The position numbers were made by a program, and so were the translations under genes. A DNA stretch of 34,917 nt from a virus, in IMG/VR virus record IMGVR_UViG_3300021962_009940, positions 1 to 34,917 of that record; one strand, written 5' to 3'. This document shows, piece after piece, positions 1 to 27,744 of the stretch. Under the pieces are notes generated by a model. It was not told where the DNA came from. It did no database searches and worked only from the letters and a program-made list of their open reading frames with translations. How positions within the stretch are numbered: the first letter of the stretch is position 1; each line of letters starts with the position of its first letter.

Positions 1-44
1 GGCTAGGGTCTGCTGCAGGTAGGTCTTTTTCTATTGACATGGAT

Positions 45-88
45 TAAAAAGATAAAGGCAATACTGTTATTATACAGTACTGCCTTTA
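45..88 (-). terminator. Rho-independent terminator of the phasin-like gene
   Basis: A 14-bp inverted repeat (arms 53-66 and 75-88, 8-nt loop) lies just past the stop of the gene ending at 113. Read on the minus strand the single imperfect position becomes a G-U pair, and the stem is followed by a T-rich run (complement of 45-51). On the plus strand the same position is an A-C mismatch with no T run, so it works better for minus-strand transcription. Positions 1-44 show no supportable gene. Confidence 0.75.
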
Positions 89-112
89 CTTATGTCTAAT
101 AATATGAATATA

Positions 113-340
113 TTATTTTGAACTAACTGCCTTGGTCCAATCAAATGCTGCTGCTTCTTTTGCAGTTTTGGTCATGTGTTCACCGGCTGTTTCCATTTGC
201 TTGGCAAAGCCTTTTGAAAATTCAACTTGCTTGTCTGTCAAGTCCAGCAAGGCTGTTTTAACTGCATCAGGCTGTACATAAGAGATTGCTGTTTTGGCGT
301 TTTTTGCGTAGGTGTCTACTAGTGTTTCGAATGTGAACAT
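113..340 (-). CDS. Phasin-like small protein
   Basis: About 75 residues beginning MFTFETLVDTYAKN. I chose the ATG at 338-340 because AGGAG sits 7 nt upstream; the longer frame from 370 has no such site. The protein is amphipathic and helical, with the F-x-K-x-F-A-K-Q-type heptads and A/K/T-rich tail seen in phasins, proteins that coat polyhydroxyalkanoate granules. It is shorter than usual bacterial phasins (about 110-190 residues). A TATAAATA-like element lies about 20 nt upstream and a strong terminator follows, so it appears to be a single-gene late unit. A generic helical phage protein is the main alternative; the family call is tentative. Confidence 0.4.
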   Translation of the reverse strand: MFTFETLVDTYAKNAKTAISYVQPDAVKTALLDLTDKQVEFSKGFAKQMETAGEHMTKTAKEAAAFDWTKAVSSK

Positions 341-360
341 GGTGTTCTCCTTAATGTGTT

Positions 361-368
361 TATTTATC
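361..368 (-). promoter_or_regulatory. T4-late-like promoter element (GATAAATA)
   Basis: GATAAATA on the minus strand, one base from the T4 late consensus TATAAATA and identical to the elements before the PAAR and Bug genes. It lies 20 nt upstream of the phasin-like start. The divergent gap (341-471) also holds two plus-strand CTAAATA strings near 421-440 ahead of the next gene; those are weaker matches. Confidence 0.45.
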
Positions 369-471
369 AATTATATTGCATTGCAGCAATTTTCGCAAGT
401 TTTTTGGATAAATTTGTTTATCTAAATAACCCAACTAAATATTTGTACAAAACATTACCAAGGAGACACGG

Positions 472-717
472 ATGTTTAAAGCAATTAAAGAATTTTTCAT
501 GGGCAAGCCTGCACCGGCACCAGTGGCAACACCAAGAGCAGAAGAAGCACCTTACAAGATTGAAGCACCTGTTGTGGCTGAAGCAGCACCTGCTGTTAAA
601 AAATCTACACCACCACGTGCTAAAAAACCTGCGGCAGCAAAGAAGCCAGCTGTGGCCAAACCTGCGGCAGCAAAGAAGCCAGCAGCACCACGCAAGCCCA
701 AGACTCCAGCAGCCTAA
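472..717 (+). CDS. Lys/Ala/Pro-rich basic-tail protein
   Basis: 81 residues. The first ten (MFKAIKEFFM) form a short amphipathic helix; residues 12-45 are Pro/Ala/Glu-rich; residues 43-81 are a highly basic tail of KKPAAAKKPA-type repeats resembling histone-H1-like and AlgP-like C-terminal tails, which bind nucleic acid non-specifically. AAGGAG precedes the ATG with good spacing. The DNA carries a perfect 26-bp direct repeat, so the tail grew by internal duplication. Possible roles are DNA condensation or membrane and virion tethering; I cannot choose between them. It is divergent from the phasin-like gene and followed by the homing endonuclease. Confidence 0.7.
   Translation: MFKAIKEFFMGKPAPAPVATPRAEEAPYKIEAPVVAEAAPAVKKSTPPRAKKPAAAKKPAVAKPAAAKKPAAPRKPKTPAA
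625..683 (+). repeat. 26-bp direct repeat, period 33, in the basic-tail gene
   Basis: Positions 625-650 and 658-683 are identical (start aaacctgcggcag, end gaagccagc). The repeat is in frame and encodes the KPAAAKKPA unit twice. Confidence 0.9.
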
Positions 718-741
718 ACAAACGTCTTTAACTAAATAAGG

Positions 742-773
742 GTGTAGTTCGCGGGCGGGAACCCCAACTACAC
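742..773 (+). other. Stem-loop between basic-tail gene and homing endonuclease
   Basis: Arms gtgtagtt (742-749) and aactacac (766-773) are perfectly complementary, and inner ggg (753-755) can pair with ccc (762-764). No T run follows, so this is not a classic terminator. It lies about 24 nt ahead of the homing-endonuclease start and just before its AAGGAG site, so an RNA processing or translational control role is possible. Confidence 0.5.
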
Positions 774-797
774 TAACGCTTTCAAGGAGCATCAGCA

Positions 798-1385
798 ATG
801 ACTATTTATTTGTATGTTAAGACCCATCGTAAAACAGGCTTAAAATACTTAGGCAAAACTACATCAACTAATCCGCATACCTATCACGGGTCTGGCGGCA
901 TCTGGAAACAACATTTAAAAGAACACGGTATTGATTATGATACCAAAATTATTCGAGAATGTCAAACCAATCAAGAACTATCTCAGTGGGGACGATATTA
1001 TAGCGAGCTTTGGAATGTAGTTGAAAGTTCGGACTGGGCTAATCAAATTCCCGAGACCGGTGGCGGTGGTAATCATACAGAAGAAAGAAAAGAACTATTT
1101 AGGCAACAGCAACTTGGTAAAATGAAAGGAACAAGATCCGAGGAACACAAGAAAAATTTATCTGCTGCCACAAAAGGAATACCTAAGCCAAGATCAAAAG
1201 AACATCAACTTGCCTGGAACGAGTCGTCAAAAAGAAACTGGGATAAAAATCCAGAAAGAAAAAAACAACAAAGCGAACGTATATCAAAGCTCAACAAAGA
1301 AAGAACAATTACAGAAAAAACACGAGAAAAAAGAAGACAGTCTATGTTAAAATATTGGGAAACTAAAAAGTCCCAGTCGGTCTGA
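798..1385 (+). CDS. GIY-YIG-family homing endonuclease with NUMOD3-like repeats
   Basis: 195 residues. The N-terminus reads IYLYVK-(8 residues)-KYLGKT followed by YHGSGG, a divergent GIY-YIG nuclease core like the free-standing Seg endonucleases of T4-like phages. From residue 112 two copies of a basic helix motif occur (RSEEHKKNLSAATKG and RSKEHQLAWNESS), the NUMOD3-type DNA-binding repeat, followed by a highly charged Lys/Arg/Glu tail. AAGGAG lies 11 nt before the ATG. It is plus-strand in a mostly minus-strand genome, convergent with uvdE and overlapping its 3' end by 23 bp, consistent with a mobile gene. The family is fairly clear; the cleavage site is unknown. Confidence 0.8.
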   Translation: MTIYLYVKTHRKTGLKYLGKTTSTNPHTYHGSGGIWKQHLKEHGIDYDTKIIRECQTNQELSQWGRYYSELWNVVESSDWANQIPETGGGGNHTEERKELFRQQQLGKMKGTRSEEHKKNLSAATKGIPKPRSKEHQLAWNESSKRNWDKNPERKKQQSERISKLNKERTITEKTREKRRQSMLKYWETKKSQSV

Positions 1386-2388
1386 TATATTCTGCAAATT
1401 GATCTCGCCCTAAGTTCTTAGATTTGCTTTCACATTGAATATCAAAGTTGGGACTGAAGCTCGCGGCCCACGCATTTACAGCACGATTCCAGTAGAAGTC
1501 GGAATGTGCTCGCAATTTTTGTTTCTTGAATCCCTGTGCCAACAGTTGAGTCATATCCGGTAGGACATCTGGGTCATGTCCTACCAGTACATCTTCGCGA
1601 CTAACACTGTAATGCATAGCAGGACGTACACCACGCCAGCTATCCAGTACACGCTTAACGCGATCCGAATTCGGGTCCAAATACTCGCCTTCTCTGATCC
1701 AGTTATGATGAATATCCAGAACAATGGGAACAACATCACCAAGGCTGAGACAATCATCTAGACCCCATGAATTTTCTTCGTTTTCGATTGTAATAGTATT
1801 CCTAGCTTCCGGGGAGAGGCGACCCAGGACTTTCCTGATACCATCAGGACCTTGACGCCCGCTGATGTGTACGTTGATCTTAAAATCTTGGAAACTTTTA
1901 CCATATCCCATCCATCTTGCCATGTCTGCATGATACTCAAACTCCTCTATAGATCGTTCAACAATGTTTTCGTTCACACTGGCTAGGACACAAAACTGGC
2001 CAGGGTGAAAGCTGAGTCTCACTCCCAACTGTCTTGCTCGCTCACCAATGGGTGCAAATATTTGTTCCAAGTGTCTTTGTATGTCTGCTTGCTGCCACCA
2101 TGTAATCCAGTCAGGTTCGGTGTAGCCTTGTAGCATTTCACTGCCCAGACGAACCATACGCAAGTGATGAGGTAAACTGCCCACCCGTTCCACCATGCGT
2201 AGTGCAGCGGCTGCGTTGTGGTTCATGATATCCCACTGACGCTGTTCTGCTTCGTTTTTATGTTCGCGTAGCCAGCGCATGGTGGTGCTGCGTCCGTTTA
2301 GGTCGCGGCTTTCGCTAGTGGGTTTACGGCCAGCACATTCCGCCGGGTGATCGATCCATTTACAACAGAAACCAACTCGCGGTGTCAT
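1363..2388 (-). CDS. uvsE: UV damage endonuclease UvdE
   Basis: 341 residues, close to the usual bacterial UvdE length. This TIM-barrel metal-dependent enzyme nicks DNA 5' of UV photoproducts and other distortions, starting repair independently of UvrABC. Recognisable signatures: VGFCCKW at residues 5-11, SFHPGQF near 126-132 (metal-ligand histidine), NVHISGRQG near 172, TIENEE near 200, LDIHHNW near 224 and RAHSDFYW near 293. It is the last gene of a long overlapping minus-strand operon (4-bp ATGA overlap with the gene upstream) and converges on the homing endonuclease. In a phage it would restore UV-damaged genomes, as expected for surface-water viruses. Confidence 0.92.
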   Translation of the reverse strand: MTPRVGFCCKWIDHPAECAGRKPTSESRDLNGRSTTMRWLREHKNEAEQRQWDIMNHNAAAALRMVERVGSLPHHLRMVRLGSEMLQGYTEPDWITWWQQADIQRHLEQIFAPIGERARQLGVRLSFHPGQFCVLASVNENIVERSIEEFEYHADMARWMGYGKSFQDFKINVHISGRQGPDGIRKVLGRLSPEARNTITIENEENSWGLDDCLSLGDVVPIVLDIHHNWIREGEYLDPNSDRVKRVLDSWRGVRPAMHYSVSREDVLVGHDPDVLPDMTQLLAQGFKKQKLRAHSDFYWNRAVNAWAASFSPNFDIQCESKSKNLGRDQFAEYIRPTGTF

Positions 2389-2600
2389 CCAGTTCTTACC
2401 TTTATTTGATCGCCATACTTTAACATGAGAAATGATAGGTAGGCGCAGTTATCGGGAGAGTTGACATGTATTTCTAAACTATTACGATTAGTACAAAAAG
2501 ACCATTCACTACCAATAGGTCCAAACTCAGATCGAAAGTTCTTAATCAGCTGAACACGATCATCATAGGAAATACCAGGAATAGTATAGATATTAGTCAT
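2385..2600 (-). CDS. Hypothetical protein, 71 aa
   Basis: Not recognised. 71 residues with a mixed alpha/beta pattern: a D-R-V-Q-L-I-K helix near residue 14 and a W-S-F-C-T-N-R-N strand/turn near 33-40. There is no membrane segment or signal peptide. It overlaps the upstream gene by 4 bp and uvdE downstream by 4 bp, so it is translationally coupled to both. The tight overlaps and clean frame support it being real; its function is unknown. Confidence 0.65.
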   Translation of the reverse strand: MTNIYTIPGISYDDRVQLIKNFRSEFGPIGSEWSFCTNRNSLEIHVNSPDNCAYLSFLMLKYGDQIKVRTG

Positions 2601-3154
2601 TGTGCTAGTAATTGTAGCACATTCTCCAAGGTATCACAAGTGAGATTGGGGAGATCTTGGTAGGTCTTTTCAAGTTGTGGTGGGTGGTCGATTAGGACAA
2701 ACTGTTGGTCGGGATTGTTTGCAATCAAACTGCGTATCAGACCATACCAATTTCGAAGTTTATGTAATTCGAAACGGTCTGATATTTCGCCAATGGGCAG
2801 AAATACAAAACCCATCATCAGCACTATTTCGCTGGTGGCAGCGGCCAAGTGTAAGCTGACAATGTCTTCGATATGGTCAACTTCTTGATCAAAGTTTCCG
2901 CCATAGTATTTGACACCAGTTGGTCTGCCCAGGTCCTGATGGTGTTGTTCGGGCAGGTAAAAATTGCAGTTTTTTTGAAAGTCTCTTTGCAGTAGTTCTC
3001 GGGCCTTGCTGAGATTATGACATACCACATTGTCAGTGGCACACGATCGCCAAGTGGTCCAAGAACCCCAAACAGGACCTACATTTTTCATTGTATCAAT
3101 GTCTACAGCAGGATCGATATGATGACCAGCAGCAACTACCCAGGTTATATTCAT
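2597..3154 (-). CDS. Conserved-looking phage hypothetical protein, 185 aa
   Basis: Not recognised with certainty. I start at the ATG at 3152-3154, which forms an ATGA overlap with the fibre-like gene, rather than an upstream frame extension. The product begins MNITWVVAAGHHIDP and has Trp-rich (VWGSWTTWRSC) and His-rich (EQHHQD) stretches, a hydrophobic SEIVLMMGFVFLP segment in the middle and a C-terminal QFVLIDHPPQ strand. The centre might be one membrane or core helix. Its position directly after the fibre-like gene suggests a linked role such as fibre assembly or attachment, but only by context. Confidence 0.6.
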   Translation of the reverse strand: MNITWVVAAGHHIDPAVDIDTMKNVGPVWGSWTTWRSCATDNVVCHNLSKARELLQRDFQKNCNFYLPEQHHQDLGRPTGVKYYGGNFDQEVDHIEDIVSLHLAAATSEIVLMMGFVFLPIGEISDRFELHKLRNWYGLIRSLIANNPDQQFVLIDHPPQLEKTYQDLPNLTCDTLENVLQLLAQ

Positions 3155-4428
3155 CGTGCGCTGTGTAGTGACTGCCACTGGAATGCACCCAGGCACACCC
3201 AGGCAAATGGTGTCCCTGGCTTGGGATCCGAGTTTAACACCAGGTCTCCTCTGGTGCCACTATAGCCAGGCACAGTGCCAGAATGACTGATTCGATGTCG
3301 TCCCACACGCAGTTGTTTTATTGTGGTCAAGCCATCTGTATCTATTTCGATCTGCGGCACACGATTGACACCGATTGCTAAATTTTGCAAACGAGCAGTG
3401 CCCACAAAAGCCTGTTGTTTGCTGAGTTTGCCGGCAATTACACTGACTTCTTCGTCCCATACAGACAAAGCCATTTCAGGTTCTTGTGTGTTGATACCCA
3501 CTCTGCGACCCGACACATGCATGGTTTGTCCAAATTGAGCTGAGCCTGCTACTTTGAGAGACTTTAATGTGCCAGTTGATTGCAAGTGACTGTCTACTAC
3601 CACAGCACTCAGCGTATTGTTTTCGATTAAGCGTTGATTGTCGATCAGCACAGATTCGAAATTTATGCCTTCTAATTTGGCACGTTCTAACACCTGTTGA
3701 ACAAGATCTTGATGCCATTGTTCAGTTGTGGCTGTTAGCACTTGTTGCGAAACAAGATCTTTAAGTTCTCTCCAGGAACAATTGTCAGTGTTGATGGTGC
3801 CACTTACAATCAAGTTCTTGATTGAAAGATCTTGCGTGACTTGAACATTCTTTGCCACAAAGTCTCTCTCAACAACAACTACTCCATCCATCACTGTTAG
3901 TTCTGTATCTTGTGCTTGGTCAACAATACCGTTGGTACGAAAATCTTTTTTAAGTCGATCTTGCCAACGGTTAATGCCTTGATCTATATGAGTTACTAAT
4001 AGAGAATTAATATCAATTGACTTTAGCAGTTTCGACAGTCTGTCAGACATAGTCTGATTGACTTGATTTTCAATTTTTTCAATCCATTCTTGATCAACTA
4101 CCAAAGCGTTAATTGAAGAAGCTACTAATTCTTCTACTCCGCGATCAACTGCCTGTGTAATAAGATCTTGGTTGATATAGTTTTTTAAGTCAGGCACTGA
4201 TCCTTGTTCAAATAATGTAGACACAGTGGATTTCACTGTGTCTACCAAGTCCGGAACTGTAGAAATATTAGAAAACTTTGCAATGATTCTAGTTTTTATA
4301 GATTCAATAATTGTTTGTTCAATTTGATTAATCCAATCTTCGTTGGCCATCAAGACTTGAATTTGTTGGTCAACTGACGATTTTATTTGTTGCTGTACTA
4401 ATTCAGTTGCTGGCAAGATATCAATCAT
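3151..4428 (-). CDS. Tail-fibre or baseplate-associated structural protein
   Basis: 425 residues. The ATG at 4426-4428 is preceded by GGAGA and overlaps the amidinotransferase 3' end by 8 bp. Residues 1-170 are heptad-rich and helical with repeated D-Q-x-W-I-x-x-I-E elements, suggesting a coiled-coil trimer stalk. The middle has short beta repeats (VVVERDFVAKNVQVTQDLSIKN). The tail (VGINTQEPEMALSVWD, then GDLVLNSDP, GTPFAWVCLG) matches the style of phage fibre and appendage C-termini, where a V-G-I-x-T-x-x-P motif often precedes an intertwined tip. No enzyme motif is seen. A minor capsid appendage is an alternative. It lies between enzymes that may modify surface structures. Confidence 0.6.
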   Translation of the reverse strand: MIDILPATELVQQQIKSSVDQQIQVLMANEDWINQIEQTIIESIKTRIIAKFSNISTVPDLVDTVKSTVSTLFEQGSVPDLKNYINQDLITQAVDRGVEELVASSINALVVDQEWIEKIENQVNQTMSDRLSKLLKSIDINSLLVTHIDQGINRWQDRLKKDFRTNGIVDQAQDTELTVMDGVVVVERDFVAKNVQVTQDLSIKNLIVSGTINTDNCSWRELKDLVSQQVLTATTEQWHQDLVQQVLERAKLEGINFESVLIDNQRLIENNTLSAVVVDSHLQSTGTLKSLKVAGSAQFGQTMHVSGRRVGINTQEPEMALSVWDEEVSVIAGKLSKQQAFVGTARLQNLAIGVNRVPQIEIDTDGLTTIKQLRVGRHRISHSGTVPGYSGTRGDLVLNSDPKPGTPFAWVCLGAFQWQSLHSAR

Positions 4429-5338
4429 TATTTCTCCATGTATCAAGAGTGACGCAATGAAAACCGCCACCCAGTGTACGACTATGTCTTAATTCGTGAG
4501 GTATAACAGTAAAACTCCATTGTTCCAGTTTCCGAATCAACGCAGTTTGATGTCGATCAACAATTACAGTGTGAGGATCTACAACCAACATGTTCATGGC
4601 AATCCATTTGCTGGCATATGGGTATTGATAAAAATCTTGAGCAACAACTTCATCGACATAAATTTTGTCCCAAGATTTAAACACATTCGGGCAGTTTTGT
4701 TCATTTACTCTGGCAGCGTTTAACAGGACCAGACCTTCTCGTAACGGCACCACAGTAGAATCAATATGCACACCAGCGTAGAAATTGCAGGTTTCTATTT
4801 TCCAATCTGGTAAGTTTGCTGCCAGCCATACGGCTGCTGCTCGATTACCGCTGGCACTTTCCAAGTACAACAAGGTATCGTTGAGTCTGCAGACATTGGC
4901 AGCGTCCAACACAAACTCAGATTCTCTGGGCATTTTCAATACTCGATTACCGTACAAGACTGCCTGCAATGATTCAGTTTCCATGTTGCGACAAGAATAG
5001 TGCATGTTGGTGTCAACAATGGTATCGCCTGCAACCAGTAAACGATCACGAGGACAATAGTTATACATACCATCTAGCGCAACAAAATCCAAGTCTGTGG
5101 GACGATGTACTATTACTCCTGCTTGGCGCAGTAGGTCACATAGTCCTTCGAGGTCATGGTTGGCTTCGTCGATAATCCATTTAGGAACAGGTCCGCTGGG
5201 CAAAGGCGAATCCTTCCACAATGTAGTTTCTGCTTCGGCTCTAAATACAGGATCATTCACCGGCCAATTGGCATTGGTAGCTGTGCCAACCACTATTTCA
5301 CGCAGTGTATCCCACTCATTGTACGAAGATATTTTCAT
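4421..5338 (-). CDS. Glycine amidinotransferase-like enzyme
   Basis: 305 residues from the ATG at 5336-5338 (AGGTG upstream). It belongs to the guanidino-group-modifying superfamily and looks most like L-arginine:glycine amidinotransferase, which moves an amidino group from arginine to an acceptor amine. All family landmarks are present: CPRDRLLV (residues 95-102), VLDAANV with the catalytic Asp near 145, AGVHIDSTVVP with the catalytic His at 191, and GGGFHCVTLD with the nucleophilic Cys at 295. It is shorter than eukaryotic AGAT (about 420) and has no signal peptide. It overlaps the 2OG oxygenase upstream and fibre gene downstream, so it is a genuine part of the phage operon. The acceptor is unknown; a deiminase activity cannot be excluded. 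Confidence 0.85.
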   Translation of the reverse strand: MKISSYNEWDTLREIVVGTATNANWPVNDPVFRAEAETTLWKDSPLPSGPVPKWIIDEANHDLEGLCDLLRQAGVIVHRPTDLDFVALDGMYNYCPRDRLLVAGDTIVDTNMHYSCRNMETESLQAVLYGNRVLKMPRESEFVLDAANVCRLNDTLLYLESASGNRAAAVWLAANLPDWKIETCNFYAGVHIDSTVVPLREGLVLLNAARVNEQNCPNVFKSWDKIYVDEVVAQDFYQYPYASKWIAMNMLVVDPHTVIVDRHQTALIRKLEQWSFTVIPHELRHSRTLGGGFHCVTLDTWRNND

Positions 5339-5837
5339 CGGGTACACCTGTAATTTGTAATGTATAGCGGTCTGTCATGCCCATGTTGGCAGCCAAGTGT
5401 CTGCGATCGTTTCGCCAAATCACTGTTTCTCCCGCTGTCCACCCTACAACAGGATCTTCATTGATTTCAAAATAATGACCCGACTGCCAATTCTCTAAGA
5501 ATACTATTGCTCTAAAAATTGTGTCGGGATCTTGGATTCCGTAGATCTCGCGGAACCTAGCGTAGGTATCTGTATGGTTAGGTAGCGTAGTTCCTGGGCC
5601 CATACGATACACTGACCAACTAAAATGCTGCCACGGAAATAACTTGCGAAACGGTTCAATCCATGCAGGCTCTGGGTTACGCATATCATACATGTCACCA
5701 GTGAACCGAGTTTGTGTATAGCCAAGGCTTTGCCATCGAGCTAAACTTTCAGGATCATTAAACGGTTCGTTGCTGTAGGAGAGATTTCTGTGTTCTAATC
5801 CCCACCAAGGATAATCAATGCGATAATGTTGACGCAT
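5316..5837 (-). CDS. 2OG-Fe(II) oxygenase-like protein
   Basis: 173 residues on a double-stranded beta-helix pattern. The iron triad is visible as H88-x-D90 (LPNHTDTYARF) and H147 (DRRHLAANMG), and R157 (DRYTLQITG) is in the right place to bind 2-oxoglutarate. Such enzymes hydroxylate proteins, nucleobases or small molecules using O2 and 2-oxoglutarate. T4-like aquatic phages often carry relatives of unknown substrate. It starts one base after the dehydrogenase stop and overlaps the amidinotransferase by 23 bp, implying linked expression. A second, different member is encoded at 21229-21876. Substrate not predictable. Confidence 0.75.
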   Translation of the reverse strand: MRQHYRIDYPWWGLEHRNLSYSNEPFNDPESLARWQSLGYTQTRFTGDMYDMRNPEPAWIEPFRKLFPWQHFSWSVYRMGPGTTLPNHTDTYARFREIYGIQDPDTIFRAIVFLENWQSGHYFEINEDPVVGWTAGETVIWRNDRRHLAANMGMTDRYTLQITGVPDENIFVQ

Positions 5838-5838
5838 A

Positions 5839-7074
5839 CTAAACTATTCGCGTGTTGCCATAGTGTATGACCTCACATCCGGCTACTTTGGTAATGGCAC
5901 GCCACGGATCAACAACGACTGATCCTGGTTTAATATCAAAATAGAAGGCATCTGCTTTTTCTTCACCGGTATATCCGTATGTGATTGATCTATTGTGTGC
6001 CATTAGCACCACAGCTGGTACATCAACATTTTCAGTTACACTGGTAGTGTCGTCAGCTAGGGGATCAACATAGTGAACAGATACATTGTGTTCTTTGATG
6101 TAATGTCCTATTAGTGTTGAATAACTTCCAATACAATAAGGCACGTCTGGCTTGTAGGCTTTGCCATGAATGATGATGGGCAGTTTACGTCCTACAGCAA
6201 TTTTGACCAAGAAGTCAGCCATGTTTTTGGCTTGCACTTCTCGGGCATGCATGATTGTGTCAAACAGGTCATATCCAATGTCGTACTCTTTGGCCAACCA
6301 ACGCAGAGCAATGTTGTCGCGCGGATGACAAGCACCTGCATCACCCATACCTGCTGTCATATACTTAGGTCCCATGATACGCATGGTACTCTTTGCTAGT
6401 GCACCTGTTACTATGTCAACATTGATGTTGCCAATCTTGATGGCAAAGTCTTGGATCATGTTGGCAAGGCCGATCTTGGCTGAAATAAAGGTGTTATAGA
6501 ATATCTTGATAGCTTCGCACTCGTCCCAAGTACCAATTTCGTAGCGTGGATCGTTTTGCATGATGCCTTTGTAGATGTCCACTAGCTCATGAGCCAGACC
6601 GTTCCAGTTGCCGTCTTCGGTACCAATCATGATCATCTCTGGATTGACCATGTCCCATTTAACTGATCCCATGGCAATCAAGTAGGGATTGTACAAGAAT
6701 TGATGTTGCTGATCCAACAAGGGATAAAAGTGTCTGCGTGTGGTGCCAGGCAGCACAGTAGAAATTAGTACAACTTTTTTGGGGCTGGTAGCATGCTCGT
6801 TGACTTTGTTAATAGCATCAATTACAGCATCGTGTCCAAAGTCTCGGGGAGTCATATGACTGCTGGGCACCGATCCGTCATAACCAGCGGCATGTGGTGT
6901 GGGTACCGCTATAAAGATCCAGTCGCTTTCATTCACAGTTTCTTCAATTGAACAAACTTTAACACGGTCACTCTCGCGTGGGTAAATATCGTATCCGCGT
7001 ACAGTGTATTTCTCCGCAAAAACTTCTGCGCAATCAAGTCCTAGCTTGCCTAAACCAATAAATCCAATATTCAT
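5839..7074 (-). CDS. UDP-glucose/GDP-mannose-family nucleotide-sugar dehydrogenase
   Basis: 411 residues from ATG 7072-7074, chosen because GAGGA precedes it and the Rossmann motif GFIGLGKLG (residues 4-12) then sits at the N-terminus. The family oxidises UDP- or GDP-sugars to uronic acids with two NAD+. Conserved features: IFIAVPTP (53-60), STVLPGTT (105-112), ECEAIKIFYNTF with K190/N194, the catalytic-Cys motif GACHPRDN with C249, and a C-terminal HGKAYKPD domain. The usual GGxCxPKD is altered to AGACHPRD but keeps the cysteine. First gene of the operon leading to the 2OG oxygenase and amidinotransferase; probably provides an acidic sugar nucleotide. Substrate (UDP-Glc, UDP-ManNAc or other) is not decided. 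Confidence 0.85.
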   Translation of the reverse strand: MNIGFIGLGKLGLDCAEVFAEKYTVRGYDIYPRESDRVKVCSIEETVNESDWIFIAVPTPHAAGYDGSVPSSHMTPRDFGHDAVIDAINKVNEHATSPKKVVLISTVLPGTTRRHFYPLLDQQHQFLYNPYLIAMGSVKWDMVNPEMIMIGTEDGNWNGLAHELVDIYKGIMQNDPRYEIGTWDECEAIKIFYNTFISAKIGLANMIQDFAIKIGNINVDIVTGALAKSTMRIMGPKYMTAGMGDAGACHPRDNIALRWLAKEYDIGYDLFDTIMHAREVQAKNMADFLVKIAVGRKLPIIIHGKAYKPDVPYCIGSYSTLIGHYIKEHNVSVHYVDPLADDTTSVTENVDVPAVVLMAHNRSITYGYTGEEKADAFYFDIKPGSVVVDPWRAITKVAGCEVIHYGNTRIV

Positions 7075-7087
7075 AGAGTCCTCAAAA

Positions 7088-8350
7088 ATGTCAGTTCCTA
7101 CACATAATTTATACGATTTCATACACCGGGCAACAAAAAAACAGTTCTTGTTGCGATATTTTTATCCTTATGGTAGCCGCTATCTCAAAGATTGCATCAC
7201 TATAATATGCACTAACTGGACACAAGGACCAAATAGTATTGATATCAAAAATCGTTTTGATCGGGTGTTTGAAGACAAATCTGGCATAACAGATTCGTCG
7301 CTTGTAACCTTACAACCAGTTTTATTTTGTCACGACCAAGAACCTTTGTTTTTTGACTACTACACCGACGATGTGCCGCACATGCAAGAATTTTGCGAAT
7401 ATGTTAGGGAAAATCAATTTCTCAGCAAAGAACTAAAAAATCTCAATCTTCGATGGGTACATCCAATATCGGTACAAAAAACTTGGATTCTGTTACACTC
7501 GGAGTTAAACTCCCACGAGCTGAACAAATATGAATCCACCGGCTCTTTTATAGGAGCATATTGGTGGAGCCATGCTATGCTGTCACTCGACTGGTATAGA
7601 TTTGCCCAACATGATCCTGCATTAGATACTACCGACGAATACAAAAAGTTATTTTTAATTTACTGCCGAGATACCACTGGATCTCGAACATACCGTAAAA
7701 CTTTCATATCTAGCATTGAAAAAAATAACGTGATTAACGATTGTCAAATTGGGTCTTTTCTTGAATACGAAATAACATCAGAATCAAGTGCTGTGTACGA
7801 TGCTGTAGACTATAATCGGACTGCTATTAGTGTGGTATTAGAAACTGTTTTTGATGCTCGCATCCATCTGACAGAAAAAACTCTAAGACCTTTAGCATGC
7901 GGCCATCCATTTATATTGGCAGCTGGGCCTGGCAGTTTGGCACTATTAAGAAAATACGGTTTTCAAACGTTTTCTCCCTACATCGACGAAACATACGATA
8001 CAGTGCAAGACAATGATCTAAGGCTACAACTTATTGTCGAAGAAATGCAAAGGATACAACTGTTATCCGAATCTCAGCGTACTGAGCTAGTTAAACAGTG
8101 CAATCAAATTGCAGAAATCAACAAGGCACATTTCTTTTCAAAAGATTTTTTTAATCAGATCGTAAACGAGTTACAACACAATGTTACTGCTGCTTTTGAT
8201 CAGCATCAAGGTCAGTTAGACTTGTCACTCTGGTGGGAAGAACGTAAAAAACGCAAGAAGAATCCGTTGATTCCTAATACTAAGAAAACTAAACTGCTAT
8301 CTTACTTGCTAACATTGTTTCGGAACACTCGACAAGCCAAATCTACTTAA
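7088..8350 (+). CDS. Glycosyltransferase-like phage protein
   Basis: 420 residues from ATG 7088. No strong ribosome site is visible, and upstream in-frame codons lie inside the divergent dehydrogenase gene, so the start is uncertain. The C-terminal half holds ETVFDARIHLTEKTLRPLACGHPFI (about 252-276, quoted in part by family: F-x-T/L-E-K-x-x-x-P-L-x-x-G-x-P-F-I), then a G-x-x-x-L-L-R-K-Y-G-F-x-T-F-S element, the pattern of fucosyltransferase-like nucleotide-binding domains and of many aquatic-phage glycosyltransferase-like proteins. The tail is basic. It is divergent from the sugar-nucleotide dehydrogenase with only a 13-bp gap, which fits a shared sugar pathway. Catalysis is unproven. Confidence 0.5.
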   Translation: MSVPTHNLYDFIHRATKKQFLLRYFYPYGSRYLKDCITIICTNWTQGPNSIDIKNRFDRVFEDKSGITDSSLVTLQPVLFCHDQEPLFFDYYTDDVPHMQEFCEYVRENQFLSKELKNLNLRWVHPISVQKTWILLHSELNSHELNKYESTGSFIGAYWWSHAMLSLDWYRFAQHDPALDTTDEYKKLFLIYCRDTTGSRTYRKTFISSIEKNNVINDCQIGSFLEYEITSESSAVYDAVDYNRTAISVVLETVFDARIHLTEKTLRPLACGHPFILAAGPGSLALLRKYGFQTFSPYIDETYDTVQDNDLRLQLIVEEMQRIQLLSESQRTELVKQCNQIAEINKAHFFSKDFFNQIVNELQHNVTAAFDQHQGQLDLSLWWEERKKRKKNPLIPNTKKTKLLSYLLTLFRNTRQAKST

Positions 8351-8702
8351 CAACAGGTAGCACCCCAGTCCAGTCTGGTCCAGGGTCTTGTTCTTTGTAG
8401 TTTTTTACTCGTGCGTCCATTTCGGTGTAGAACGAATCAAGTTCGCCATTCCAACGACCCAATAGCTGTTCTACAGCCTGTTCGCAATAGTTCCAGTTGC
8501 GTAGGTAATAGTTCTTGATGAGATTTTGGTGTAGATCCAAGTATTGATCTACACTAAACATTTCCTGTATAGGTGTGTTTTCGATCAGACAATAAGCAGT
8601 GCTTTTTTTGTCTGCGTCAGCAAAATAAAAAGTGTCTAAGGGCAACAACATGTATTTTGACTTGACATCGTCGGTGATTGAATCTTCAAACATTATATTC
8701 AT
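8343..8702 (-). CDS. Hypothetical protein, 119 aa
   Basis: Not recognised. 119 residues, acidic, with aromatic-rich helices (YLDLHQNLIKNYYLRNWNY around 53-71) and a C-terminal proline-rich end. No signal or membrane segment. The start overlaps the clpS stop by 4 bp (ATGA), so it is coupled to ClpS. An alternative ATG three codons in is possible. The end overlaps convergently with the plus-strand glycosyltransferase-like gene by 8 bp. Coupling to clpS could hint at a linked role, but nothing in the sequence shows it. Confidence 0.65.
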   Translation of the reverse strand: MNIMFEDSITDDVKSKYMLLPLDTFYFADADKKSTAYCLIENTPIQEMFSVDQYLDLHQNLIKNYYLRNWNYCEQAVEQLLGRWNGELDSFYTEMDARVKNYKEQDPGPDWTGVLPVVK

Positions 8703-9001
8703 GCTGTATCGGGTTCCAGTTTAATTTGCAATGGGTAGCCTTCTGATCTTGCGTTTACAGTGATTTCGATGCCTTTCTGTTCGGCCACTTCGTACGGCAA
8801 TACTGCAACCACAGCTGAACCCGATTCGTGGATGTCCATGGTGATTGTTTGAGCAGTATCTGGTGTGTATTCAAAATGTTCAATTAAGCTGTCAACAACA
8901 AACTCGACCGCGGTGCGATCATCATTTAAGTATATGACCTTGAACAGAGGCGGTTCTTTAAGAGAGACATTAGTTCTTGTTTTTGATTCGACATTGGCCA
9001 T
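8699..9001 (-). CDS. clpS: ClpS, N-degron adaptor for Clp protease
   Basis: 100 residues, standard ClpS size. ClpS binds proteins with destabilising N-terminal residues and delivers them to ClpAP. The core begins PPLFKVIYLNDDRTAVEFV; N26, D27 and D28 and H58 (MDIHESGSA) align with the residues that hold the substrate alpha-amino group in bacterial ClpS, so the pocket appears intact. The flexible N-terminal extension (about 17 residues) needed for ClpA handling is present. AAGGAT precedes the ATG. Located downstream of Hsp20 and the ClpX-bS21 block, and coupled to an unknown gene. No clpA is in the window, so it presumably acts with host ClpA. Confidence 0.92.
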   Translation of the reverse strand: MANVESKTRTNVSLKEPPLFKVIYLNDDRTAVEFVVDSLIEHFEYTPDTAQTITMDIHESGSAVVAVLPYEVAEQKGIEITVNARSEGYPLQIKLEPDTA

Positions 9002-9019
9002 TGTGTGATCCTTGAAAGT

Positions 9020-9044
9020 GGCCCGAGTTGCCCCGGGCCTTTTT
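9020..9044 (+). terminator. Plus-strand rho-independent terminator between hsp20 and clpS
   Basis: GGCCCG (9020-9025) and CGGGCC (9034-9039) form a GC-only stem followed by TTTTT (9040-9044). Oriented for plus-strand transcription although both flanking genes are minus-strand. It could stop antisense readthrough from the plus-strand gene ending at 8350. On the minus strand the hairpin lies between hsp20 and clpS without a T run and could act as an RNA-stability or processing element. Confidence 0.7.
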
Positions 9045-9046
9045 AT

Positions 9047-9502
9047 TTAAGCTGAGAGAGCGGGAACATAGTTGACAGCAATCTTCTTGGGCCGTTGCGA
9101 TTCAGGAATGTTTCGCTCCAGCTTGACAGTTAAGATGCCATCTTTTAGTTCGGCGTCGCGCACTTCAACATATTCTGCCACCGAGAAGGTGCGAACAAAG
9201 CTGCGGCCGCTGATGCCATGATGCAGATACTCTACCTCTAGTTGAGGGGTAGCTTCTGCTGTTTTCTCGCCCTTAACAATGAGTGTACCATTGTTGAATT
9301 CAACATCAATATCCGCTTGTGCAAAGCCAGCTACTGCCACACGAATCTCGTAAGTTTCGTCGCCAGTGCGAACAATGTCGTAAGGTGGATAGTTTGTTGA
9401 AGCTGCCGAATCAATTTGGCTTACGATACGATCGAACAATCGATCGATTCCAATTGAATTGCGGTAGAAGGGGGTGAGGTCTAGAGTTGTGAGTTTAGTC
9501 AT
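9047..9502 (-). CDS. Small heat-shock protein (Hsp20/IbpA family)
   Basis: 151 residues. ATP-independent chaperone that holds unfolding proteins. The N-terminal arm (1-38) resembles IbpA (TPFYRNSIGIDRLFD). The alpha-crystallin domain spans about 40-135, with DIVRTGDETYEIRVAVAGF, NNGTLIVKGEK and the hallmark LKDGILTVKLER; an I-x-V motif (KIAVNY) follows in the C-terminal tail. AGGAG precedes the ATG. A perfect TATAAATA lies about 60 nt upstream, pointing to late expression, when virion assembly stresses folding. It is followed by a hairpin and clpS. Such proteins are known in T4-like aquatic phages. Confidence 0.92.
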   Translation of the reverse strand: MTKLTTLDLTPFYRNSIGIDRLFDRIVSQIDSAASTNYPPYDIVRTGDETYEIRVAVAGFAQADIDVEFNNGTLIVKGEKTAEATPQLEVEYLHHGISGRSFVRTFSVAEYVEVRDAELKDGILTVKLERNIPESQRPKKIAVNYVPALSA

Positions 9503-9563
9503 TTTGATCTCCTATTAAGCAAGTTTGACTATATGTTGCAGCCCGACATCGGCACTGCAAGTA

Positions 9564-9571
9564 TATTTATA
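9564..9571 (-). promoter_or_regulatory. Perfect T4-type late promoter TATAAATA
   Basis: Exact T4 late consensus on the minus strand, about 60 nt upstream of hsp20, the best match in the window. T4 late promoters need only this -10-like octamer and are read by phage sigma gp55; no gp55 gene is in this window, so use by the same mechanism is inferred. Confidence 0.6.
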
Positions 9572-9577
9572 ACATAG

Positions 9578-9616
9578 AACAATCATTAACACAATAGATA
9601 ATGGTTAACGATTGTT
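9578..9616 (-). other. Long inverted repeat at the 3' end of the clpX-bS21 unit
   Basis: Arms 9578-9590 and 9604-9616 (13 bp) pair fully on the minus-strand RNA if one G-U is allowed, with a 13-nt loop. The first arm in the RNA includes the stop codon of the 82-aa gene. There is no clear T run, so this is a weak terminator or stabilising 3' hairpin immediately before the hsp20 late promoter. Confidence 0.5.
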
Positions 9617-9853
9617 AAGGTCTCGTACGATTCGGTAACGTTGCCAAGCAGTTTCTGGCCAAGTCAACTGAAAATAGGTATAGACTGCATCATCTTCAAA
9701 GCACACTCGGTACTTGAACTTGATGGTCTTGGTTGTGTATTTGATATTGTTGTGTTGTTCGGCCCATTCAACCAGCTCTCGGGTAATAAGTTGATGAATA
9801 TATCCAGTTCCCGCAAAAGATGATCCTTGCGGCAGGTCGAACTCGATATACAT
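9605..9853 (-). CDS. Hypothetical protein, 82 aa
   Basis: Not recognised. 82 residues with alternating strands ([37 protein letters not shown]) suggesting a small beta-rich fold and a basic C-terminus (RYRIVRDLNNR). Its ATG overlaps the bS21 stop by one base (TGATG), so it is coupled to the ribosomal protein gene. Its own stop is inside a strong inverted repeat. The link to bS21 and ClpX suggests a host-takeover or translation role, by position only. Confidence 0.6.
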   Translation of the reverse strand: MYIEFDLPQGSSFAGTGYIHQLITRELVEWAEQHNNIKYTTKTIKFKYRVCFEDDAVYTYFQLTWPETAWQRYRIVRDLNNR

Positions 9854-10080
9854 CAGTACATTTTTTTAGGAAGCTGTTGACTACGCAAGTACTTTTTCCA
9901 ACGTGATTTGGCCTGGGCAGCTTTGACCTTGCGACGTGTGGTGGGTTTGATGTAGGTTTCGCGTTCGCGCAATTCTATCAGCAATCCAGACTCAGCAATT
10001 TTCTTCTTGAACTTTCTGAGTGCTTGTTCAACTTTGTCATCCTGTACGTATACAGTTCTTCCGTTTAATTTCAATCTCAA
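9853..10080 (-). CDS. rpsU: Ribosomal protein bS21
   Basis: 75 residues, versus 71 in E. coli. bS21 sits by the 16S rRNA 3' end on the 30S platform, near the anti-Shine-Dalgarno, and is needed for initiation. Recognisable: [25 protein letters not shown]-type core (quoted in part), Y-x-K-P-T-T-R-R-K motif near 46-53, and a basic tail ending in KKMY like the RLY end of cellular proteins. It overlaps clpX by 4 bp (ATGA). Large aquatic phages often encode bS21, and it is thought to exchange into host ribosomes to bias translation. An extra N-terminal strand ([15 protein letters not shown]) replaces the usual MPVIKVRENE. Confidence 0.92.
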
Positions 10081-11282
10081 TTCCTTGTTAATGTTGCAGG
10101 ATTATTTACCTGTTTCTCATCAATATCTACGCATTTAACGGCTGTAGCTTGATATTGCTTGAGATCAAACATGTGCGGCAACAACACACGTTCTAGTTCG
10201 CTTTGCAGGGCTCTAGCACCTGTTCCGGATGCAATAGCACGTTCTACAATGGCCAAGATAGCATGGTCGTCAAAGGCTAGATCCACACCGTCTTGCTGAA
10301 ACAGCCAACGATATTGATCAATCAAGTTGTTTTTTGTTTCGATTAAGATACGCACAAGATCTGCTTTTTCCAACTGCTGTAGTGCAACTACCACGGGGAA
10401 ACGTCCAACAAATTCTGGAATCAGACCAAACTTGACTAGATCATCTGGGGTCACAGTACCTAGATCTATGGATACATTTTTTGACTGCACTTCTTTGCCA
10501 AATCCTATGCCGCCGCCCACAGTGCGTGATTTGATGATCTTGTCCAAGCCCACAAATGCGCCGCCGGCAATGAACAGAATATTGGTAGTATCAATTTCGA
10601 TCATTTCGCCCGACGGATGTTTACGTCCACCCGACACTGGTACACGACAAGTGGTGCCTTCTACCATTTTTAACAAGGCCTGTTGAACACCTTCGCCTGA
10701 CACATCTCTGGTGATGCTGGCACTTTCGCTCTTGCGTGATATCTTGTCAATCTCGTCAACATACACAATACCACGTTGTGTTTTTTCCAAGTTGTTGCCG
10801 GAGTTGGTATACAGTCTGGCAATAAGTGTTTCCACATCATCGCCCACATATCCAGCTTCGGTAATACTGGTAGCATCAGCAATGGCAAACGGCACGTCCA
10901 GGTACTTGGCAATGGTCTTGGCCAGCATGGTCTTGCCGCAGCCGGAAGGCCCAACCATGAGAATATTGGCCTTGTTGATTTCAATGTCTTTGTCTTGGTT
11001 TGATATGCGTTTGTAGTGATTCACAATGGCTACTGCCAGAGTCATTTTGGCCTGTAGTTGCCCTACTACATATTGATCCAAGTACTCTTTTAGCTTCTTG
11101 GGATCTTGTCCATCGATTAACTGCTGTTTTACAGCATCCGCGGCATCGTCGTTTTTCAACAAGTCTTGACACAAGTCAACGCACTCGTTGCAGATTGCCA
11201 CACTATCACTGACTATTAACTTTTTGACTTCTTCTTTTTTCTTACCACAAAAACTACAGACATTCTTCAGTGCATCTGACAT
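10077..11282 (-). CDS. clpX: ClpX, AAA+ unfoldase of ClpXP
   Basis: 401 residues (E. coli 424). ATP-driven hexameric unfoldase. All parts are present: zinc-binding domain C9xxC12...C31xxC34; Walker A GPSGCGKT (111-118); pore-1 loop GYVG (144-147); Walker B VYVDEID (173-179); RKH loop (220-222); ClpP-docking tripeptide IGF (259-261); arginine finger GRF (293-295); sensor-2 GAR (355-357). It therefore looks active and able to dock host ClpP, and no clpP is in the window. It starts immediately after the coiled-coil membrane gene (no gap) and overlaps bS21 by 4 bp. The C-terminus after residue 385 is shorter than in host ClpX. Confidence 0.95.
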
Positions 11283-13040
11283 CTATTGACCTTTTGGTGT
11301 TAGTTTTGTTTCAATTTGTTGTTGTTCAGCTGGGCTGAGTAATTCGGGGTCGTATTGGCCTGATACTAACTTGTCCATAAGATATTCTATATAGGCACTA
11401 TTATAAGCATAACTGTCTGAAAGACTTTTGTCAACTTCTATCCACTTGATTCCGTTGTATTTGAACAATTTGCTAGGTATATATCCTGTGTGTAGGAACT
11501 GATAACCTTTTACAGGATTGTCAGGCAGTATCTGACCAAACGGTACTGATTCAGTTTCGGGTAGATAGTTTTCCCAAGGCAAATGATCTATTTGTCCTTG
11601 TGCCAACAGTTGTCGTTGTTCTTTTAGAGTTTTGTCAGGATTGTCGGCTTTCCATTTACGTTTGGCTTCTTTGACCGCAGCAGTTTCTTCAGGGTACTCT
11701 CCTACTTCTTCTTCCGGAACTGTCTCAGTTTTTTTTTGATTCAAATTATCGAGTGCTTCAAGTCGAGCTTGTCTTCTACGTCGCACACGGTTTCTCGGTC
11801 GCTTGGGCACAGGCTCATAACGAGCACGGGGCAGATCTTGTGGTGTGGGCAGTACGGGTGGGGGCAGTACGGGTGGGGGCGGCATAACACCGCGTATCCA
11901 AGAACGGCTTTCGGTAGCAGCCAACAACATCATTACTGCCAACGGGTCAAATACGGCAACAATAAGGATAATGACCCAGCGCACAGCTTTTTCCAATATG
12001 GTTTGATCTGTAGTGTCGTATATGAGTTCAGCAATGTACTTGATAGGGCCTACTTCAACTTCTAGCTTGCGAAACTCTGCCTGTAACTCATACTTGGTTC
12101 GGGTAAGTTTTTCAATTTCTAAGTTGGCTACGTTGATACGTTGTTGTTGTTCGTTAACCAGTGTTTCAACTGATGCAGTATCACCTTTGCCCAACTGGTT
12201 GCGTAAGCGATCAATCAGACGATTCGATTCGGCCACTTGCGTTTCTACAGTGCGACGCACACGAGCAATTTCTTCTCTAGCAGCTCGTATAGTGGGATTG
12301 TTATTGGCTTGTTCTAGTTTCTCCACAGCCGCTGCACGTTCGCGAGCTCTGACAGCTTGCCAGTTTCTTACAGCAGCCGCAGTGCCAGGACCCCAGTTGC
12401 CATCCACTGCTGTGCCTACCAAGGCCTGTGCTTTGTCGATTTCTTTAGCATCAATAAAAGTCTGTAGCTGTGCTGACTGTTGATCTATCTTGGCAATCTG
12501 ATCTTGATAAATCTTTGTCTGTGCATCAATGATCTTGTTCTGTTCATCAATGGCCGGCTGTACACGAGCCAGAGCAGCATCAATACGGTCTTGTTCTGTA
12601 CGGATTTGACTATTGACGTTGGCATCAGCACCAGTACCAGTTGTTTCTAGTGTCTTGGCGCGAGCTTCGGCTTTTTCAACTATATCTGTTTGGCGTTTGA
12701 GTTCTACTTCGATGCGTTGTAGCTGTGCGGCATTTTCTTGTCCTTGACCCACTTGTTCGATATGGGCCTTGCTGAGGAATCCAAAGATTCCCATGGAGGT
12801 AATAAACATCAGAATAGCTACACTAGGCACCAAGTATAATCGCATGGCCCATTTGACACGACTCCAATATTCGTGTAGCCATACCGTGATCACCAACTTG
12901 GCCACTTCCAGGATTGATCCCATGATCACAACAGGAATCACACTTGCGGCAAAAATCGCTGTCAATCCAACGATGGAATAAAAGGCAGCCACTGCACTGA
13001 GACAAAGGGCTACCGCAAGCATGAGATAAGTTAAGAGCAT
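11283..13040 (-). CDS. Membrane-anchored coiled-coil protein with PG-binding-like motif
   Basis: 585 residues, no recognised family. Three or so hydrophobic helices occupy residues 1-90, a long Glu/Gln/Arg-rich coiled coil covers about 95-345, and one more membrane helix lies at about 354-376. Inside the coiled coil, AVDGNWGPGTAAAVRNWQ (211-228) matches the D-G-x-x-G-x-x-T-x-x-A-V-x-x-x-Q signature of peptidoglycan-binding domain 1. A Pro-rich linker (PPPPVLPPPVLPTP) with tandem DNA repeats and an Arg-rich patch (RNRVRRRRQAR) follow, then a soluble C-terminal domain. Envelope or host-membrane remodelling is likely. The stop abuts the clpX start with no gap. No clear ribosome site precedes the start. 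Confidence 0.65.
   Translation of the reverse strand: MLLTYLMLAVALCLSAVAAFYSIVGLTAIFAASVIPVVIMGSILEVAKLVITVWLHEYWSRVKWAMRLYLVPSVAILMFITSMGIFGFLSKAHIEQVGQGQENAAQLQRIEVELKRQTDIVEKAEARAKTLETTGTGADANVNSQIRTEQDRIDAALARVQPAIDEQNKIIDAQTKIYQDQIAKIDQQSAQLQTFIDAKEIDKAQALVGTAVDGNWGPGTAAAVRNWQAVRARERAAAVEKLEQANNNPTIRAAREEIARVRRTVETQVAESNRLIDRLRNQLGKGDTASVETLVNEQQQRINVANLEIEKLTRTKYELQAEFRKLEVEVGPIKYIAELIYDTTDQTILEKAVRWVIILIVAVFDPLAVMMLLAATESRSWIRGVMPPPPVLPPPVLPTPQDLPRARYEPVPKRPRNRVRRRRQARLEALDNLNQKKTETVPEEEVGEYPEETAAVKEAKRKWKADNPDKTLKEQRQLLAQGQIDHLPWENYLPETESVPFGQILPDNPVKGYQFLHTGYIPSKLFKYNGIKWIEVDKSLSDSYAYNSAYIEYLMDKLVSGQYDPELLSPAEQQQIETKLTPKGQ
11847..11876 (-). repeat. Two 15-bp tandem repeats coding for PPVLP units
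   Basis: gggcagtacgggtgg occurs twice in tandem (11847-11861, 11862-11876), with partial homology to a third unit after it. In frame it extends the proline-rich hinge of the membrane protein, so linker length may vary between related phages. Confidence 0.8.
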
Positions 13041-27502: not shown

Positions 27503-27744
27503 ATTTTATCTTCTTTAATCAATTCGTGTTCGTTCCATACGTTTCTATTATGTACTGCACTTTCTTTTAACAATCTCCATGTTTTTTCTTTAGCTGTTTC
27601 AGTCCAAGTAAAGTATAAATTGTTTAAAGGAGGTCGTCCAGTGTGTTTATCGTACAGTGATTTATGCTGATGGTAGGTACATAACCATATTAGTTTGCCG
27701 CTGGTTACAGTAACAGGCCACCAGGCAAACTTTTTACTTTCCAT
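27499..27744 (-). CDS. Small Trp-rich protein, 81 aa
   Basis: 81 residues from ATG 27742-27744, overlapping the aldolase end by 11 bp and nrdB start by 4 bp. Rich in Trp, Lys, Tyr and His: FAWWPVTVTSGKLIWLCTYHQHKSLYDK (region 5-32), suggesting a compact beta fold. No known family. It lies between the aldolase and nrdB, so it is coupled to RNR expression. A frame extension to 27765 inside the aldolase is less likely. Confidence 0.55.
   Translation of the reverse strand: MESKKFAWWPVTVTSGKLIWLCTYHQHKSLYDKHTGRPPLNNLYFTWTETAKEKTWRLLKESAVHNRNVWNEHELIKEDKI

Follow-up and report, generated by a model that had tools for sequence, protein, structure and literature searches.

The genes clpX, rpsU (encoding bS21), hsp20 and clpS form a conserved cassette, and we consider it quite likely that T4-related huge phages own a protein quality-control system of which this cassette is the core, with hsp20 gated through its RNA leader as part of a regulon. 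The block is best read as a phage-borne proteostasis regulon, probably gated by temperature. Phage chaperones and Clp proteins have so far been treated as accessory genes with a scattered occurrence; in these phages they stand in a very stable gene order across a large phage group, together with a phage-owned protease and an RNA element common to the chaperone genes.

In the 34,917-nucleotide window (the whole stretch of viral DNA analysed) the block lies on the minus strand and consists of clpX (10077..11282, 401 aa), rpsU (9853..10080, 75 aa), orf82 (9605..9853, between rpsU and hsp20), hsp20 (9047..9502, an IbpA-like small heat-shock protein of 151 aa), clpS (8699..9001, the N-degron adaptor, 100 aa) and orf119 (8343..8702, overlapping the end of clpS by 4 bp), whilst orf585 (11283..13040, same strand), a predicted membrane/coiled-coil protein, abuts clpX. 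The four named genes, which the initial annotation had placed at 11282-8699(-), are all present with scores above the Pfam cut-offs, and the 4-bp overlap it described between clpX and rpsU is seen at 10077-10080, where the rpsU start codon TTG sits inside TTGA; in relatives, too, the two genes most often overlap by exactly 4 nt (31/103). That annotation did not contain orf82, orf119, orf585 or the structured leader of hsp20. The order orf585-clpX-bS21-orf82-hsp20-clpS-orf119 is invariant in 117 other contigs, with all genes on one strand and all four named genes (clpX, bS21, hsp20 and clpS) in 90 of them, so the synteny check that had been proposed for relatives returned no random scattering. 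Among contigs with clpX, orf585 holds the same position in 108/114, orf119 is present in 93/114 and orf82 in 59/114, its position conserved; the two small genes, orf82 and orf119, also belong to the block. Co-occurrence is far from chance: ClpX-seeded loci with room downstream also carry clpS and hsp20 in 41/46 cases, and ClpS-seeded loci carry clpX in 67/68 and hsp20 in 75/75. We tried to name orf82 and orf119 by predicted fold, and the AF2 models were confident (a small alpha/beta fold at pLDDT 88 and a compact fold at pLDDT 92, respectively), yet neither matched a PDB structure at E<=0.001.

The strongest clue to the control of the block is the structured leader upstream of hsp20 (9497..9561, minus strand, as are all leader positions below). 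It is a ROSE-like leader of two hairpins: hairpin I occupies 9560-9536, and downstream of it UUGCU (9522-9518) lies opposite the Shine-Dalgarno sequence AGGAG (9513-9509), with AGUCA (9530-9526) opposite UGACU (9501-9497), spanning the start codon. The ROSE architecture is present, with two hairpins, a UYGCU opposite the Shine-Dalgarno sequence and a small heat-shock gene downstream. Against the Rfam model ROSE_3 (RF02523) the window leader scores 34.5 bits (E 2.8e-5), under the gathering score of 43, and the best score in relatives, 41.7 bits, is also under it; because of this we call the leader ROSE-like and do not file it as an RF02523 member. For the same reason, six relatives' leaders searched at the Rfam gathering threshold gave no match. 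Against our own model, R1, the window leader scores 77.6 bits. Compensatory changes occur in 6/6 pairs of hairpin I (helix 1), with 66 double-changed cells compared to 20 in shuffles; since the Shine-Dalgarno helix is itself invariant, covariation supports hairpin I only. The closest known counterpart is the short ROSE element of Pseudomonas ibpA (PMC3669281; Rfam ROSE_3), which likewise has two hairpins, a U(U/C)GCU opposite the Shine-Dalgarno sequence and a position ahead of a small heat-shock gene; in both, one pair of hairpin I switches between G-C and C-G (GC 41, CG 24 in the phages). The two differ in that most relatives here have a phage-type TATAAATA box before the leader, that further copies stand on groES, dnaK and phasin-like genes, and that the scores fall under the Rfam cut-off. 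ROSE elements are bacterial RNA thermometers, which let translation start on warming, and by this likeness the leader presumably senses temperature. A search of the open literature (PMC) found no phage RNA thermometer of ROSE-like type.

Copies of the leader occur at a narrow set of genes. Model R1 matches 36/38 phage records, and its extra copies stand before groES-groEL (5 records), dnaK (3) and phasin-like genes. Rfam ROSE_3 at E<=0.01 matches 17/34 virus records and 0/14 control genomes, and all 21 matches lie at hsp20, groES, dnaK or a phasin-like gene. A gene-blind scan of IMG/VR for the motif core gave 82 places, of which BLAST assigned 67 to hsp20, 8 to dnaK and 2 to phasin-like genes, with two further places of these gene kinds recognised by eye. 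The window has its own phasin-like gene (113..340, minus strand, 75 aa), the product of which matches an HMM of relatives' proteins (E 1e-10); relatives' phasin-like genes often carry a ROSE-like leader, and the window's copy has none. It is this sharing of one leader between hsp20 and the groES-groEL, dnaK and phasin-like genes of relatives that suggests a regulon. Slightly favoured, in our judgement, is the wider proposition that huge phages possess a heat-shock regulon of their own, in which one type of RNA thermometer on hsp20-clpS, groES-groEL, dnaK and phasin-like genes gates the chaperone/Clp set by temperature; if true, it would amount to a heat-shock response that is viral and does not depend on host sigma-32.

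A T4-type late-promoter-like TATAAATA box lies upstream of the hsp20 leader (9564..9571, minus strand) as the sole exact copy in the window, and 63/110 relatives have the same box no further than 150 nt from hsp20, against a background of 0.9%; for NATAAATA the figures are 102/110 and 2.6%. The gp23 genes that were read have no TATAAATA within 120 nt, so the putative 'late' label comes from the motif itself and from its occurrence ahead of PAAR and tail genes. Between hsp20 and clpS, a TAAATA box (9049-9044) is followed immediately by a hairpin (9039-9020; together 9020..9049, minus strand), an arrangement found in 82/110 relatives against a background of 0.7%. As clpS thus has a different hairpin right after its own box, promoter-adjacent hairpins may be general, and the hsp20 leader could be a 5' stability hairpin joined to a strong ribosome site, its likeness to ROSE being descent from a host ibpA leader with the function lost. 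Folding with ViennaRNA fits such a reading in that the Shine-Dalgarno region is mostly occluded and hardly melts from 5 to 45 C, in a calculation whose standard energies make no provision for ROSE's non-canonical pairs. We nevertheless regard it as unlikely: UUGCU and AGGAG hardly vary in a leader that otherwise drifts, and it is precisely the other heat-shock genes to which the copies have spread.

In the temperature-gated regulon that we prefer, hsp20 would be transcribed from the late-type TATAAATA promoter and its mRNA leader would fold as two hairpins, of which the second would hide the Shine-Dalgarno sequence by means of UUGCU, like the short ROSE of Pseudomonas ibpA. The ribosome site would open on warming, or if the leader structure were lost, and the phage would thereby raise its own chaperone output as proteins begin to unfold. 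Hsp20 may then hold unfolding proteins for a phage-encoded unfoldase/protease set, in which ClpX, its IGF loop docking phage ClpP, would be joined in relatives by ClpA working with ClpS and ClpP, whilst bS21 would join host ribosomes at initiation. Should the element be a temperature sensor, the phages would have a heat-shock response of their own, and the outcome of infection would be tied to warming. The block might instead serve virion assembly, with ClpX, Hsp20, GroEL and ClpP folding and trimming the structural proteins of a very large virion and temperature being irrelevant. Assembly roles have been proposed for phage ClpX/ClpA by Iyer et al. (PMC7824862), relatives of ClpP are head-maturation proteases in other phages (a similarity below cut-off), and NATAAATA boxes precede the PAAR and tail genes in the window; such a role would leave unexplained why the ROSE-like leader is repeated on hsp20, groES, dnaK and phasin-like genes, and it has no obvious place for an N-degron adaptor, so we think it improbable.

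ClpX scores above the Pfam cut-offs (zf-C4_ClpX 55 bits, AAA_2 106 bits) and above the NCBIfam ClpX equivalog cut-off (509 vs 371 bits), and keeps the C4 zinc domain, Walker A/B, the GYVG pore loop, the RKH loop and the ClpP-docking IGF loop. bS21 passes the cut-offs of PF01165 (Ribosomal_S21, 49.1 bits) and TIGR00030 (S21p). Hsp20 exceeds that of the alpha-crystallin domain (PF00011, 60.6 bits) and matches phrog_432, with an NCBIfam IbpA score (120.7 bits) under the equivalog cut-off of 212. ClpS is above the PF02617 cut-off (78.8 bits) and its best score against the NCBIfam ClpS equivalogs is 70.7 bits, under the cut-off of 149; it appears divergent and is filed by its Pfam domain only. It keeps the N-degron pocket residues Asn34, Asp35, Thr38 and His66, whilst pocket residue Met62 is Thr in 89/90 phage sequences and gate residue 40, Val in the window, is Met in 64/90 relatives; of the residues that contact ClpA, Glu79 is kept in 90/90 phage sequences and Lys84 in 88/90. 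Positions are numbered on an E. coli reference, a numbering that agrees with PDB ClpS alignments. Every functional motif of bacterial ClpX, ClpS, ClpA and ClpP that was checked is kept in the phage proteins, the phage set differing in its separate, ~55% identical ClpX and in the Met62 change of ClpS. The intact motifs claimed initially are thus borne out and point to active ClpX and ClpS.

The first 13 codons of a clpP2 gene lie at the window edge (1..40, minus strand), cut by the window end, and a contig that overlaps the window at 99.5% identity over 6669 bp (L417) contains the complete gene (1538-2098(-), 186 aa, PF00574 E 2e-28), with Ser-His-Asp contexts kept when compared by eye with relatives' ClpP. 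Judged by sequence, this phage lineage encodes its own ClpP with an intact catalytic triad. Of 30 large relatives, 27 have a ClpP, frequently two intact paralogues that both keep Ser-His-Asp, and 16 a ClpA-like protein with the N-domain; no ClpA was seen in the window phage's own sequence, which is a fragment. The initial annotation had the block redirecting host ClpP, a claim now weakened and in need of revision, and its suggestion that ClpS works with the phage ClpX finds no support, the contacts to the ClpA N-domain being kept and ClpA-like proteins occurring in the same genomes. The kept IGF loop and ClpS contact residues mean that host partners could be bound, and phages with bS21 express it late (PMC9723584); phage ClpX and ClpS might on this basis take over host ClpP and ClpA, with bS21 likewise taking over the host ribosome, so that host proteins are degraded and phage mRNAs favoured. 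We hold this to be quite doubtful, because the lineage's own ClpP and the ClpA and ClpP of large relatives make host partners unnecessary, and Leu/Phe-tRNA transferase, the possible phage source of N-degrons, was found in 0/30 relatives, for which reason phage-made N-degrons by that route were discarded.

That unrelated host genes were captured side by side, or that the records are bacterial contamination, is refuted by the invariant order in 117 contigs, by a T4-type capsid gene (gp23) in 14/30 large records and by a phage ClpX clade apart from bacteria (support 98/97), and is a vanishingly small chance even though some records labelled as phage that contain ClpX/ClpS are clearly bacterial. 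One of these, Acinetobacter phage MD-2021a, was rejected as nearest named phage, its matches being surrounded by trigger factor, clpP, argC and clpA. The nearest bacterial ClpX found is ~55% identical to that of the phages and outside their clade, hence no host call was made from ClpX.

In the published bS21 phages surveyed by Chen et al. 2022, the ten-gene neighbourhood of bS21 includes Hsp20 (n = 127) and Clp proteases (n = 50 and 47); the parts consulted give no description of the gene order or regulation of a Clp/Hsp20 block, and in those authors' own Bacteroidetes phages bS21 adjoins terminase, capsid and prohead protease genes, unlike here (PMC9723584). The closest cultured phages are the jumbo phages Atu_ph07 (Agrobacterium), with seven Clp-family proteins (PMC6102473), and Phosso and AP-J-162 (Sinorhizobium). 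As in the window, clpX is followed by a translation-initiation gene, which in all three is IF-3 in place of bS21 (clpX adjoins IF-3 in AP-J-162; PMC11242549). In Atu_ph07 and Phosso, hsp20, thymidine kinase and clpS come next in the same order as in the window block, the thymidine kinase between hsp20 and clpS and the larger gaps being the differences. The published accounts found for these three phages make no mention of a leader, yet a ROSE_3-like leader also precedes hsp20 in Atu_ph07.

On the minus strand of the window, a 34.9-kb virus fragment in IMG/VR, the block runs in transcription order from orf585 (13040-11283) through clpX (11282-10077), the bS21 gene rpsU (10080-9853), orf82 (9853-9605), which sits between rpsU and hsp20, hsp20 itself (9502-9047) and clpS (9001-8699) to orf119 (8702-8343). 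Gene calls and Pfam searches, in which clpX, bS21, hsp20 and clpS all passed the cut-off, confirmed the initial annotation of these four genes together, including the 4-bp overlap of clpX and rpsU (bases TTGA); rpsU and orf82 overlap by 1 bp, clpS and orf119 by 4 bp. The product of orf585, directly 5' of clpX, combines hydrophobic N-terminal segments with a long coiled coil; its VDGNWGPGT stretch is similar to peptidoglycan-binding repeats, and a Pfam search with the protein returned no match.

A scan of 2.9 million viral contigs recovered 54 loci with ClpX and 80 with ClpS, giving a set of 117 contigs with same-contig loci merged and the near-identical copy of the window left out. The search for clpX-rpsU-hsp20-clpS synteny, set as a check in the initial annotation, came out in its favour: wherever block genes were present they lay on a single strand in the order orf585-clpX-rpsU-orf82-hsp20-clpS-orf119, with all four named genes in 90 of the 117 contigs, counts which are not independent events as the contigs share kinship. 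ClpS and hsp20 accompanied 41 of 46 ClpX-seeded loci with room for them, ClpX was found at 67 of 68 ClpS-seeded loci, orf585 held its position in 108 of 114 clpX contigs, and the block was still intact where ClpX identity fell to ~48% (contig L049). The variable position is the bS21 slot after clpX, where no bS21 was detectable in a sub-group (loci L011-L017 and others) that retains orf82; other relatives carry GroES-GroEL or DnaK genes inserted in the gap 5' of hsp20. A T4-type gp23 capsid gene is present in 14 of 30 large records, and in the tree the ClpX of the group forms a clade distinct from bacteria (support 98/97) and so was not a recent capture from a host. Two records labelled phage, CAKLQF02 and CAKLQH02 (Acinetobacter phage MD-2021a), were rejected as they resemble bacterial chromosome (tig-clpP-clpX, argC, clpS-clpA).

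A ROSE-like leader precedes hsp20 (9497-9561, minus strand): directly 3' of a TATAAATA box lies a hairpin, UGUAG.GCCGAUGGUCGGGC.CUACA, followed by ACUUGCUUAA..AAGGAG ahead of the start codon. The thermoregulator ROSE_3 was the sole Rfam match at E ≤ 10 in window positions 8950-9700 (E 2.8e-5), although its 34.5 bits fall under the Rfam cut-off of 43. Across 74 aligned leaders 95.8% of cells pair and 9 of 19 pairs exhibit compensatory change, with 66 double-changed cells vs. 20.3 ± 3.1 in shuffles and 2-14 in slid versions; helix 1 covaries at 6/6 pairs, whilst the UUGC/AGGAG helix is almost invariant and covariation is therefore uninformative for it. The short ROSE elements of Pseudomonas ibpA share this make-up of two hairpins with U(U/C)GCU facing the Shine-Dalgarno (SD) sequence, and one of their hairpin I pairs occurs as G-C or C-G (PMC3669281); likewise, at one such pair of the phage leaders 41 sequences have GC and 24 have CG.

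The box before hsp20 is the single exact TATAAATA in the window, and it occurs ≤150 nt 5' of hsp20 in 63 of 110 relatives (0.9% of random stretches), NATAAATA upstream of hsp20 in 102 of 110 (2.6%). Of the seven NATAAATA sites in the window, five are followed within 100 nt by a gene on the same strand, vs. 7-13% of random positions; these genes include one for a PAAR spike and one for a protein resembling tail spikes. Between hsp20 and clpS, a TAAATA box is immediately followed by a strong hairpin (9020-9049, minus strand), a layout found before clpS in 82 of 110 relatives (0.7% background) with varying hairpin sequence; clpS may therefore also be transcribed separately from hsp20.

The leader is not confined to hsp20. 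R1, a covariance model made from the hsp20 leaders, matched 36 of 38 phage records. Apart from those at hsp20, it picked up leaders at groES-groEL (five records), at dnaK (three) and, in eight records, at phasin-like genes that lie 2-4 kb upstream of clpP; the phasin-like assignment is tentative (Phasin_2 E 0.003, under cut-off). The independent Rfam ROSE_3 model gave 21 matches at E ≤ 0.01 in 17 of 34 records and zero in 14 control genomes, all 21 placed 5' of hsp20, groES, dnaK or a phasin-like gene. One of them precedes hsp20 in Atu_ph07, a cultured Agrobacterium phage in which the gene order clpX-IF3-...-hsp20-tk-clpS, spanning the start of the circular record, parallels that of the window. 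Scanning IMG/VR with the bare core CTTGCTTAA(0-6)AAGGAGAA, a query without any coding sequence, hit at least 82 places; among the matches listed, BLAST assigned 67 to hsp20, eight to dnaK and two to phasin-like genes, and of five left over, one Hsp20 and one phasin-like protein were recognised by eye. A weak leader match (locus L215, G014:143712-143810, E 0.006) precedes a 300-aa gene of no assigned family, in a relative without hsp20 and clpS beside clpX.

The initial annotation had assumed host ClpP, yet the relatives and the window's own lineage carry phage ClpP genes: 27 of 30 large relatives and 19 of 39 shorter ones encode ClpP, mostly as two paralogues, both keeping the Ser-His-Asp contexts by comparison with E. 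coli ClpP. In G033, the nearest long relative, the clpP genes follow a phasin-like gene and are ~8-11 kb away from clpX on its downstream side; the counterpart of this phasin-like gene occupies window positions 113-340. The last 40 bases of the window (1-40, minus strand) start an ORF, MSIEKDLPAADPS, which is completed in L417, an 8.7 kb contig that overlaps window positions 1-6668 at 99.5% and whose metagenome also yielded a near-identical copy of the window; this clpP2 encodes 186 aa (PF00574, E 2e-28) with catalytic residues kept. A terminator-like hairpin (aaaggcagtactgt...acagtattgccttt, then a T-run; 41-112, minus strand) separates the phasin-like gene from clpP2, and a homing-endonuclease-like gene (phrog_314; 798-1385, plus strand), also in L417, lies on the opposite strand. 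The window ClpX has the IGF loop, and 16 of 30 large relatives encode a ClpA-like protein that bears a Clp_N domain. In 90 distinct ClpS sequences Asn34, Asp35, Thr38, Val43, His66 and Leu99 are invariant, the ClpA-contact residues Glu79 and Lys84 are kept in 90 and 88, and Met62 is replaced by Thr in 89. Most simply, we read these proteins as a Clp set encoded by the phage itself, in which, we infer, ClpS would serve ClpA and ClpX would dock the phage ClpP.

Clp proteins, Hsp20 and bS21 of jumbo phages are already known individually (PMC7824862, PMC6102473, PMC11242549); among open-access papers we found none on the fixed gene order of this block, on phage ClpP near it or on a ROSE-type leader in phages. 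We consider the block part of a phage proteostasis regulon, in which hsp20 transcription would start from a late-type box and the ROSE-like hairpin would hold back translation until its opening, most simply through warming, frees it. Hsp20 would act as holdase, GroEL and DnaK as foldases in some relatives, ClpX, ClpA, ClpS and ClpP as unfoldase/protease, and bS21 at initiation. The temperature response of the leader is the weak link of this mechanism: according to ViennaRNA, most of the leaders tried have a largely paired SD region, yet this pairing hardly depends on temperature, and ROSE's non-canonical pairs are beyond what the program can score. Elsewhere in the window (26402-30726, minus strand), the genes for the small and the large subunit of ribonucleotide reductase are separated by two small ORFs.
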